Source of the DNA: Candidatus Methylomirabilota bacterium
Lineage (GTDB): Bacteria > Methylomirabilota > Methylomirabilia > Rokubacteriales > CSP1-6
Assembly: GCA_035260325.1 (NCBI GenBank)
Contig: DATFVL010000038.1
Span: forward strand, 1 to 32,275
Direction: 5' to 3'
DNA: 32,275 nt
Part shown: piece by piece, positions 2,961-20,989 of the stretch
Numbering within the stretch: position 1 is the first letter of the stretch
How the letters are laid out: each line of letters begins with the position of its first letter
Position numbers and translations under genes: made by a program
Notes under the pieces: model-generated
Databases searched by the model: none
What the model saw: only the letters and a program-made list of their open reading frames with translations
What the model was told of the DNA's origin: nothing

Positions 2961-4227
2961 GGCCGGACGGCCTTCCCGCCGACGATCGTGAGCCACGGGG
3001 CGCCCGTGAGCATCCAGCCCGCGAAGGGCGTGTTCCGGCTCTTCGAGCGGAACTTGGCGGGGTCCACCGTCGTCTTGCGTTCGAGGTCCAGGATCGTCAC
3101 GTCGGCCGGTGCGCCGGGGGCGAGGCTCCCGCCCGGCAGGTTGAGAAGCCTCGCGGGGTCGCGCGAGAGGCGTGAGACGAGCGTCGGGAGCGGGAGGAGC
3201 CCGGGCTTGACGAGCCGGTCGAGCAGCACCGCCACCGCCGTCTCGAGGCCCACGACGCCGAACGCGGCGTGGTCGAACTCGCCCTCCTTCTCGGCGAGCG
3301 CGTGGGGCGCGTGGTCGGTCGCCACGCAGTCGATCGTGCCGTCGGCGAGGGCCTCGACGAGCGTCTCGACGTCGCGCTTCGTCCGGAGCGGCGGCGCCAT
3401 CTTGGTGTTCGGGTCGTAGCCGCGCACGGCCTCCTCGGTCAGCACCAGGTGGTGCGGCGTGACCTCGGCGGTCACGCGGACGCCGCGGGCCTTGCCGTCG
3501 CGGACGAGGCGGACGGCGCCCGCGGTCGAGAGGTGGGCGATGTGGATGTGGGCGCCCGTCAGCTCGGCGAGGAGGATGTCGCGCGCGACCATCACGTCCT
3601 CGGCCGCCGCCGGGGCGCCGGGCAGGCCGATCTCGGTCGAGACCACGCCCTCGTTCATCGTGAAGCCCCGGGAGAGGTACGTGTCCTCGGCGTGGCTCAC
3701 GACGGGGACGCCGAAGGGCAGCGTGTACTCCATCGCGCGCCGGTAGAGATCCGCGTTCATCACGCACCGGCCGTCGTCGGAGAAGGCGACACAGCCCGCC
3801 TCGGCGAGCTCGGCCAGCTCGGCGAGCTCCTCGCCGTTGAGGTTCTTCGTGACCGCGCCGATCGGATGGACGCGGACGACGCCCTCGACCTTGGCCTTCG
3901 CCAGGATGTAGTCGGTGACGGCGCCGTTGTCGTTGACGGGGTGGGTGTTGGCCATGCAGGCGACCGCCGTGAAGCCGCCGGCCGCCGCCGCGCGCGTGCC
4001 GGTCGCGACCGTCTCCTTGTACTCGTGGCCGGGCTCGCGCAGGTGGACGTGGATGTCGATGAAGCCGGGGCAGACGACCTTGCCCGTGGCGTCGAGGACC
4101 TCGGCGCCGGGCGGCGCGGTCACGTTCTTCCCGACGCGCTCGATCTTCCCGTCGGCGATGAGCACGTCCTGGACGGCGTCCACGCCGTTCGCCGGGTCGA
4201 TCACGCGCCCGTGCCTGATCAGGAGGC

Positions 4228-17287: not shown

Positions 17288-17716
17288 TCAGACGTCCACG
17301 ATCAGCGCGACCTCATGACGCCCGTCCCGCTCGGCGACGCTCGTCCGATGCAGCGTCGCGGCCTTGACGACGGTCCCGAGGCGATGGCGCCGCGGATCGA
17401 GGGGCTCGCCGTGGAGCACGCCGTGGACGACGGTGTCGTCGCAGGCGAGGACCTCGACCCGGCGCACGACGAAGCCCTCGATCTCGTGCACGTAGAGGCA
17501 CTCGTTGACCCACGCGACGAGCAGCGGCTCGGGCGCCTCGGCCTGCGCCCGCACCGCGCGGGCCTCACGCGCCTCGACCTCGTCGGCCGCGACGATCAGC
17601 GCGAGCACGCCGAGCGCCGCCTGGGCGAAGGCCTCGCCCCGCGTCGGGCCCCACGCGCGCACGCCGACGTCGGCCTCGACGTCGAAGTGCTCCCAGCCGG
17701 CGGCGGAAACGGTCAG
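17288..17716 (-). CDS. Archease, probable CTG start
   Basis: Archease activates RtcB-type RNA ligase. The product is about 142 residues with the family landmarks in order: a WEHFDVEADVGVRAWG opening, ALGVLALI, LLVAWVNECLYVHE near 65-79, GEPLDPRRH near 103-111, VVKAATLHRTSV, and a C-terminal LIVDV with the conserved final Asp. No ATG, GTG or TTG lies in this frame between the upstream stops and the WEHFDVEADVGV motif. CTG at 17716 follows GGGGA by six bases and overlaps the rsmE stop as CTGA, the geometry used elsewhere in this window. Starting at the first downstream GTG would delete the conserved N terminus. No rtcB gene is nearby. Confidence 0.85.
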   Translation of the reverse strand: MTVSAAGWEHFDVEADVGVRAWGPTRGEAFAQAALGVLALIVAADEVEAREARAVRAQAEAPEPLLVAWVNECLYVHEIEGFVVRRVEVLACDDTVVHGVLHGEPLDPRRHRLGTVVKAATLHRTSVAERDGRHEVALIVDV

Positions 17717-18489
17717 CTCATGTCCCCGAATTTGTTCTGCAGGATCGCGATGAGCGCGGGGCCCGCCGTCTCGGTGCGGAGGATCCGCGGCCCGACGCCG
17801 ACGACCGCGAAGCCGCGCGCCCGCGCGCTCTCGACCTCGGCGCGCGCGAGCCCGCCCTCGGGTCCGACGAGCAGAAGGACGCGCGCATCGGGGGGGAGGG
17901 AGCGGGGCAGGCTCGCGGCGAGTGTCGTTCCGAGCGAGCGAGCCTGCCCCGCTCCCTCCCCCGCCTGCGCCGCGGATTCCCAGAAGCAGAGCCGGAGCTC
18001 GGCGGGCTCGGCGGCGGCGAGGAACTCGGCGAGGGGCCGGGGCGCGTCGACGGGCGGAATGACGGCGCGTCCGCACTGCTTCGCCGCCTCTTTCGCGACG
18101 CGCTGCCAGCGGCGTGCGCGCTCGCGCCAGCGGCCGGGCTCGAGGGCGACGATCGTGCGCTCGGTGAGGACCGGGACGACGCGCGCCACGCCGAGCTCGG
18201 TGGCGGCGCGGACGATCAGCTCCATCTTGTCGCCCTTCGGCACCGACTGGACGAGCGTGAGGCGCAGGGCGGAGTCGGCCGCGCGCGCCACGACGCCGAG
18301 CACGGTGCCCGTCGCGGCCTCGCCGACCGTCTCCAGGCGCACCGTGTAGTCGTGCCCGGCGCCGTCGGTGGCGAGGACGGTGTCGCCCGGGCGCAGGCGC
18401 AGCACGCGCGAGATGTGGCGCGACTCGTCGCGATCGAAGCGGACGTGCCCGCCGTCGATCCGCTCAGGCGCGAGCGTGAAGCGCCGCAC
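17713..18489 (-). CDS. rsmE: 16S rRNA m3U1498 methyltransferase RsmE
   Basis: RsmE methylates U1498 of 16S rRNA with S-adenosylmethionine. The 258-residue product has an N-terminal PUA-like domain (RHISRVLRLRPGD) and a SPOUT domain with QSVPKGDKMELIVRAATELGV, the knot motif LLLVGPEGGLARAEVE and the C-terminal GPRILRTETAGPALIAI. The start is GTG at 18489, overlapping the prmA end by 26 bases. Between the FWES segment and LLLVGPEGG the protein carries an unusual low-complexity stretch of about 25 residues encoded by a perfect inverted repeat (17892-17962). It is in frame and lies before the cofactor knot, so the enzyme may still be active. Confidence 0.93.
   Translation of the reverse strand: MRRFTLAPERIDGGHVRFDRDESRHISRVLRLRPGDTVLATDGAGHDYTVRLETVGEAATGTVLGVVARAADSALRLTLVQSVPKGDKMELIVRAATELGVARVVPVLTERTIVALEPGRWRERARRWQRVAKEAAKQCGRAVIPPVDAPRPLAEFLAAAEPAELRLCFWESAAQAGEGAGQARSLGTTLAASLPRSLPPDARVLLLVGPEGGLARAEVESARARGFAVVGVGPRILRTETAGPALIAILQNKFGDMS
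17892..17962. repeat. Perfect 25-bp inverted repeat inside rsmE
   Basis: Arms at 17892-17916 and 17938-17962 are exact reverse complements over 25 bases, separated by a 21-base loop. The left arm begins GGGGGAGGGAGCGGGG. The 71-bp structure is inside the rsmE reading frame and is translated as a Gly/Ala/Ser/Leu/Pro-rich insert. It resembles Rickettsia-type palindromic elements, which insert in frame in genes, or a mobile REP/MITE-like sequence. No transposase is present. Confidence 0.9.
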
Positions 18490-20465: not shown

Positions 20466-20989
20466 TACGGGGCGGCCTCGTCCGACGCCACGGCGACGGC
20501 GACGAGCGCCGGGCGCAGGACGCGGTCGTGCAGCAGGTAGCCCGGCAGCTGCTCGCTCGCGACGGTGCCGGGCTTGGCGTCGGTGCTGACCACGCGCGCG
20601 ACCGCCTCGTGGCGCGTGGGATCGAAGGGCTCCCCGACGGCGGAGTAGCGCGTCACGCCGTGGCGCCCGAGGACCCGGAGGAACTCGCGCTGGGCGAGCT
20701 CGACGCCCGAGACCACGCTCGCCGCGTCGCCACGCCGGCGGGCGGCCTCGAGCGCGCGGTCGAGGTTGTCGAGGACCGGGATCAGGTCGCGGAGCAGCGG
20801 CTCGTTGGCGTACTTGAGGTACTCCTCGCGGTCGCGCTGGCTGCGGCGCCGGACGTTGTCGGCCTCGGCGAGCGCGCGGAGGAGGCGGTCCTGCTTCTCG
20901 TCCAGCTGCCGCTTCAGCTCCTCGACCTCGGAGGGCGGCGGCTCGACCGCCTCGGGTGAGGGAGCGTCACGCGTCGTGTCGTCGTCCAT
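20465..20989 (-). CDS. grpE: Nucleotide exchange factor GrpE
   Basis: GrpE exchanges ADP for ATP on DnaK. The 174-residue product has an acidic Pro-rich leader (1-20), a long coiled coil (about 20-75; VEELKRQLDEKQDRLLRALAEA) and a C-terminal beta domain with GVTRYSAVGEPFDPTRHEAV. The ATG at 20989 is used; a TATAAT hexamer ends nine bases upstream, so an extra transcript might begin almost at the start codon. It follows hrcA by 39 bases and runs straight into dnaJ. Confidence 0.95.
   Translation of the reverse strand: MDDDTTRDAPSPEAVEPPPSEVEELKRQLDEKQDRLLRALAEADNVRRRSQRDREEYLKYANEPLLRDLIPVLDNLDRALEAARRRGDAASVVSGVELAQREFLRVLGRHGVTRYSAVGEPFDPTRHEAVARVVSTDAKPGTVASEQLPGYLLHDRVLRPALVAVAVASDEAAP

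Follow-up and report, generated by a model that had tools for sequence, protein, structure and literature searches.

Why does the rsmE gene of a Candidatus Methylomirabilota bacterium carry a long perfect palindrome inside an unbroken reading frame, and what is this palindrome? The window, that is, the whole stretch of 32,275 nucleotides that was analysed, contains on its minus strand a frame (17713-18489) encoding the 16S rRNA (uracil1498-N3)-methyltransferase RsmE (PF04452, 2.6e-45, plus PUA_4; NCBIfam RsmE). Two arms within it, at 17892-17916 (GGGGGAGGGAGCGGGGCAGGCTCGC on the plus strand) and 17938-17962, are exact reverse complements (25/25) separated by a spacer of 21 nt (17917-17937, minus strand). 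The complete hairpin element of 71 nt (17892-17962, minus strand) leaves the frame intact and is translated as ...GEGAGQARSLGTTLAASLPRSLP..., immediately ahead of the LLLVGPEGG strand of the knot. It is the longest perfect inverted repeat of the whole window. Since the longest perfect arms in five first-order Markov copies of the window reached at most 11-14 bp, a chance origin can be excluded, as a sequence-only reading of this DNA had already argued on describing the palindrome. Hairpin folding is predicted for both strands (DNA z-scores -8.0 and -8.5).

To place the palindrome in the protein, RsmE sequences of relatives were aligned. Compared with about 18 relatives, the window's clade has 13-17 additional residues in RsmE, exactly at the palindrome. 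This position lies past the WEG motif and ahead of the strand that precedes the knot, and alignment to solved RsmE structures shows gaps there. The segment is thus an insertion missing from these relatives, situated where the sequence-only reading had located an extra segment. AlphaFold prediction of RsmE (four sequences) yielded a poor model with mean pLDDT of 57, in which the insert is the least confident part and is modelled as coil; this lends only weak support to the idea that the insert forms a flexible loop.

When the complete element was used as a BLAST query against the genome that contains it, further hairpins were revealed, and 9-10 of them, besides the rsmE element, are now recognised there. 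Alignment of the copies shows that they have the loop CTCGGAACGACACTCGC and its variants in common, whereas the G-rich left arm and the C-rich right arm are private to each copy. The repeated, conserved part is therefore not the 25-bp arm; it is the 17-nt loop core (17918-17934, minus strand), the sole part common to copies. The 71-bp element, proposed earlier as a search key, did retrieve relatives of itself, but the family is recognised by its loop and every stem is private.

To collect copies, matching of the loop pattern was combined with BLAST and a covariance model. Allowing up to one mismatch, the loop pattern was matched eight times in the window's genome and is present in 13 of 80 relatives, whereas the reversed control gave zero. 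A scan of 84,980 species genomes returned 49 stretches. Those from Candidatus Rokubacteria/Rokuibacteriota are nearly all situated on hairpins; loop matches outside Rokubacteria have no stem and were rejected as chance matches. In the window's genome the rsmE element is the top match of the covariance model (89 bits, E 6.7e-14), and this model added copies with other loop classes, CTCGGAACCCCACTCGC and TTCGAAAAGCAACTCGC. The resulting collection comprises 127 copies at 72 sites (grouped by flanks), two pairs of which represent one site each with the loop flipped, leaving about 70 independent sites. Within the family of Rokubacteria to which the window belongs (f1), 21 out of 57 genomes are carriers, and among 38 other genomes of the phylum there are none. 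The median stem is 24 bp, the longest perfect arms are 40/40, and about 14-17 nt of the loop are conserved. Loop conservation is inflated by ascertainment, as copies were mostly found via the loop; this does not apply to whole-element BLAST matches or to rsmE orthologues, which were found by protein. All genomes are draft MAGs.

The number of copies per genome ranges from 1 to about 35. The richest genome, G011 (estimated 8% contamination), exceeds most relatives several-fold, and one of its genes has two copies in opposite orientations about 115 nt apart (L093 3179/4691 and others). Its abundance would be accounted for by a burst in the recent past or else by a host that is permissive. No Rfam family scored above the gathering score, the only matches of short- and long-loop elements (for the latter, see below) being sub-threshold ones to microRNA-precursor hairpins. 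Nothing relevant on such a repeat in Rokubacteria was found in the literature (open-licence papers only), and the hairpin family is apparently undescribed.

Although stems are private, they are self-paired. In a set of 67 copies, the two arms of a hairpin pair with each other at 15.9 of 18 positions; exchanging arms among copies lowers this to 11.5 of 18, and shuffling them to 9.9. In 31 aligned copies, double-sided changes were detected at 24 of 25 stem pairs (0 of 500 shuffles), and the covariation score was 0.605, dropping to 0.158 upon shuffling and to 0.10-0.13 when partners were slid. Different sites share G-richness and inner stem bases (GGCTCC/GGAGCC), which indicates that the element itself contributes some of the stem.

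Orthologous copies, with flanks at least 85% identical, allow the change of stems to be followed. Their loops are 0.89 identical and their arms 0.78 and 0.82. Divergence of arms is uneven: some orthologous pairs keep them, and in clusters 2, 6, 18, 19 and 25 the arms are nearly as different as those of unrelated copies (0.64), still being self-paired. In two cases, orthologous sites carry the loop in opposite orientations (L011/L129 versus L057; L068 versus L248). Polymerase template switching between inverted repeats is known to have two products, homogenised arms and an inverted spacer (PMC8604942), and it can also create and maintain hairpins (PMC8794818). Since both products are seen here, we infer that stems are rewritten by template switching. 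Where a stem has been replaced completely, re-insertion or the copying of a different element may have contributed as well. Indeed, differing stems at one site within a genus exceed what homogenisation can do and need re-insertion or outside copying, which counts against the explanation preferred below. Clusters 2, 3 and 8 further display variation between congeners in loop class (GA or CC) or in the reading frame of the insert, cluster 8 differing in this way between G025 and G038/G047.

Mismatches between arms proved informative as to which strand folds. On the top (loop) strand of 112 hairpins, A.C mismatches number 109 and G.T mismatches 40, in both placements (AC 65, CA 44; GT 25, TG 15). 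The excess of A.C was found at 44 sites and the reverse at seven (p=1.2e-7), and it persists when only isolated mismatches in one copy per site are counted (54 versus 19). The A.C:G.T ratio is 37:12 for sense copies within ORFs, 18:4 for antisense copies within ORFs and 38:17 for sense copies behind stop codons; having the same direction in all three contexts, the asymmetry is not caused by transcription of the host gene. Neither can sequence context be its cause, because in a palindrome this context is identical for both mismatch cases. The covariance model used to find copies, being built on the top strand, would have favoured G.U, opposite to the observed excess, and no bias of loop orientation relative to the replication strand was seen from GC skew. 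Since A.C on the top strand is G.T on the bottom strand, the bottom strand is indicated. The asymmetry would arise either from wobble pairs tolerated on a folding bottom strand or from exposed bottom-strand cytosines being more mutable. Our inference is that folding probably takes place on the bottom strand, in the form of either single-stranded DNA or a separate RNA.

Further, we examined gene context of the 72 sites, which was called by a simple codon model trained on verified genes and not by a gene finder. Thirty sites lie directly 3' of a stop codon in sense orientation to that gene, five post-stop sites are antisense and one is located between convergent genes. About 29 sites are inside ORFs (15 sense, 14 antisense) and seven have no clear context. 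Counting the convergent site, 31 of 36 sites behind stops are sense (p=1.3e-5). Such a bias (30:5, plus the convergent site) is not predicted for a purely neutral DNA parasite and also counts against our preferred explanation. Copies in ORFs occur in every one of the six frames, three sense and three antisense; the family thus has no common peptide, unlike the Rickettsia palindromic elements (RPEs) discussed below. The loop core contains no stop codon in any frame.

In cluster 4 (L008, L268, L270, L271), one stop codon is followed by different hairpins in different genomes. Some have the constant-loop element, G001 has a long hairpin with a degenerate loop, and G014 and G022 have ordinary perfect hairpins with unrelated loops. 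This suggests that a hairpin at this place is either permanently needed or tolerated.

Filled and empty sites were compared in the spacer between hrcA and grpE. The spacer is short and empty in the window's genome (20990-21028, minus strand; coordinates derived from the sequence of the spacer and from grpE starting at 20989) and in G001, G025, G011, G016, G031, G013 and G032. In G038, G047 and G004, which are of the same genus as the empty G025, it contains the short-loop element, and in G008, G022, G028 and AR14 it contains a different palindrome with a long loop (60-75 nt). At two other sites, G004 has kept the arms and lost the loop. Filled, empty and loop-less sites imply that sites are gained, lost and re-occupied. 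Mobility is inferred from this and from dispersal: no jump was observed and no target duplication could be defined, none of the insertions being young enough for its ends to be fixed. The suspicion that the rsmE palindrome belongs to a mobile repeat able to live in coding DNA therefore holds as far as a dispersed family using all six frames is concerned, with mobility remaining an inference.

The long-loop palindromes of the hrcA-grpE spacer belong to a second family, defined by a loop of 60-73 nt, the core ATCYGAC.GCTG...AACGCTGMCTACACRGATC and arms of 36-49 bp. Its members are L111 (minus strand near position 3973), L299, L302, L298, L315, L318, L320 and L314/L317, hosted by genus g8, G022 and AR14, the last of which has perfect arms (45/45). 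The hrcA-grpE copies are located directly 3' of the hrcA stop codon, and others apparently occupy similar places. In G028:C47 (36307-36516; L314/L317), half of the palindrome is tandemly duplicated, so that a full and a half copy lie about 190 nt apart. The long- and short-loop families have architecture and one site in common; common descent has not been shown.

We consider it probable, at roughly 0.6, that the rsmE palindrome is one copy of a dispersed, non-coding and probably selfish hairpin family of Rokubacteria, with a constant loop and a private stem. Under such a scheme, template switching inside the folded hairpin would copy one arm onto the other and might flip the spacer; as we infer, the stem would then change rapidly without loss of pairing. 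In the life cycle of the element it would be the bottom strand (loop GCGAGTGTCGTTCCGAG) that folds, as single-stranded DNA or RNA, and an unidentified trans-acting protein, likewise inferred, may recognise the loop and spread the element. Copies in frame would survive because the core is free of stops in any frame and because their landing places are tolerant loops, that ahead of the knot of RsmE being an example, and copies behind stop codons may survive as harmless or useful 3'-end hairpins. A bolder version, that this is mobile DNA of a novel kind, identified by nothing but its loop of 14-17 nt, which is read by an unknown enzyme on the folded bottom strand, with a free stem rewritten by template switching and with the long-loop family of sister genera following the same plan down to the same hrcA-grpE site, is offered tentatively, and we would not rely on it.

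No mobilising enzyme was found, two protein families having been looked for. The Y1 transposase domain (PF01797) is absent from eight carriers (G000, which is the window's genome, G001, G004, G008, G011, G014, G022 and G025) and reverse transcriptase (PF00078) from the main carriers, so that both RAYT/Y1 and reverse transcriptase were rejected as mobilisers. In viral contigs there was no exact match to the GA loop and six matches to the CC loop, all without hairpin, which gives no sign of a phage carrier.

Several other explanations were weighed against the selfish hairpin family. The hairpins might be functional 3'-end RNA structures (terminator, attenuator or protein-binding mRNA) whose loop is read in the transcript, copies in ORFs being accidental. 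This would fit the location of about half of the sites immediately after a stop codon, where 30 of 35 oriented sites are sense to the upstream gene, and it would also fit different hairpins at one spot across genera (cluster 4, hrcA-grpE) and the enrichment of bacterial inverted repeats just after stop codons (PMC13155455). We nevertheless regard it as unlikely: 29 sites are inside ORFs in nearly equal orientations, selection on an mRNA hairpin would give the reverse of the 17 G.T (G.U) versus 38 A.C mismatches found on the sense strand of post-stop sense copies, inspected post-stop copies have no U-tract, and no Rfam family matches. Intrinsic terminators in particular were rejected, as no T run follows the hairpins inspected and many copies lie in ORFs in both orientations. 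It is also conceivable that the loop unit alone is mobile and that the stem is adjacent host DNA copied as an inverted repeat upon insertion, stems differing with the target. Each site does have its own stem, the net insertion in rsmE (13-17 codons) is smaller than the palindrome so that its right arm may overlie native codons, a host TCGTAG end lies within the hrcA arms of G022, and L235 pairs into host CGAGTGA. However, inner stem bases and G-richness are common across sites, and pairing extends at least 2 nt into the host gene in only 4 of 39 post-stop copies. On the latter count this fold-back was rejected as a general origin of stems, and we judge it slightly less credible than the RNA explanation.

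A REP- or REPIN-like repeat moved by an IS200/IS605-type (RAYT) transposase would resemble the family in that REPs are short palindromes found mostly behind genes and some within genes (PMC3733652), but this explanation is largely refuted. The carriers examined have no Y1 transposase, the tag GTAG is not above background at element ends (2 of 61 versus 1.8 expected), nor is CGTC, G.T is rarer than A.C on the loop strand, and stems are variable, private and long (24 bp) in contrast to a family-defining stem of 5-13 bp. Finally, all genomes being draft MAGs, and inverted repeats being possible products of chimera formation, the palindromes might be artefacts of assembly or amplification, or due to chance. 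This is refuted by shared sites: the same sites are filled across differently named projects (AR soil, NC_groundwater, RIFCSP, GWA2, 13_2_20CM), and copies are in frame and covarying.

A likeness to RPEs had been pointed out from the sequence, and it stands as regards habit. Both families comprise in-frame palindromes in unrelated, unbroken genes and also outside genes, with no dedicated enzyme known; insertion in frame into unrelated protein genes is met here by about 29 sites in ORFs. RPEs are, however, approximately 100-150 bp long, and within each of their families both the element sequence and the peptide it encodes are conserved (PMC10969869); they also have a CGTC end tag (PMC3733652) and are said to lose arm identity over time (PMC6649704). 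The Rokubacteria family, by contrast, has elements of about 71 nt in which the loop alone is conserved and private stems are near-perfect, and CGTC occurs at 10 of 61 element ends versus 13.9 expected. In these respects the comparison fails.

Integron attC sites recombine as a folded single (bottom) strand, and their structure outweighs stem sequence; they are defined by core sites and extrahelical bases and have a variable loop, unlike the hairpins described here with their constant one, and neither cassettes nor an integrase were seen. MITEs were rejected because terminal inverted repeats are not conserved, arms differing between copies. In dynamics, the closest parallel is provided by coding palindromes in the mitochondria of nematomorphs, long near-perfect inverted repeats in genes which are gained and lost and whose arms are actively homogenised (PMC6649704); they have no shared loop, whereas the Rokubacteria family conserves its loop over many loci. 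Repetitive hairpin elements of sponge mitochondria are invasive, dispersed and GC-rich, with conserved stem and variable loop (PMC2800124), which is the opposite of the pattern found here. Template switching itself (quasipalindrome; PMC8604942, PMC8794818) is a mutation process and not an element, and leaves dispersal and the conserved loop unexplained.

Dispersed palindromes in bacterial genes, thought to be nearly specific to Rickettsia, thus occur in a distant, free-living phylum, where their design combines a constant loop with a private stem. The family provides many replicated natural cases of template switching, comprising arm rewriting and loop inversion at orthologous sites. As mismatch asymmetry indicates the folding strand, the spread of palindromes that have no enzyme of their own becomes testable. 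The family also illustrates the origin of small in-frame peptide insertions in housekeeping proteins such as RsmE.
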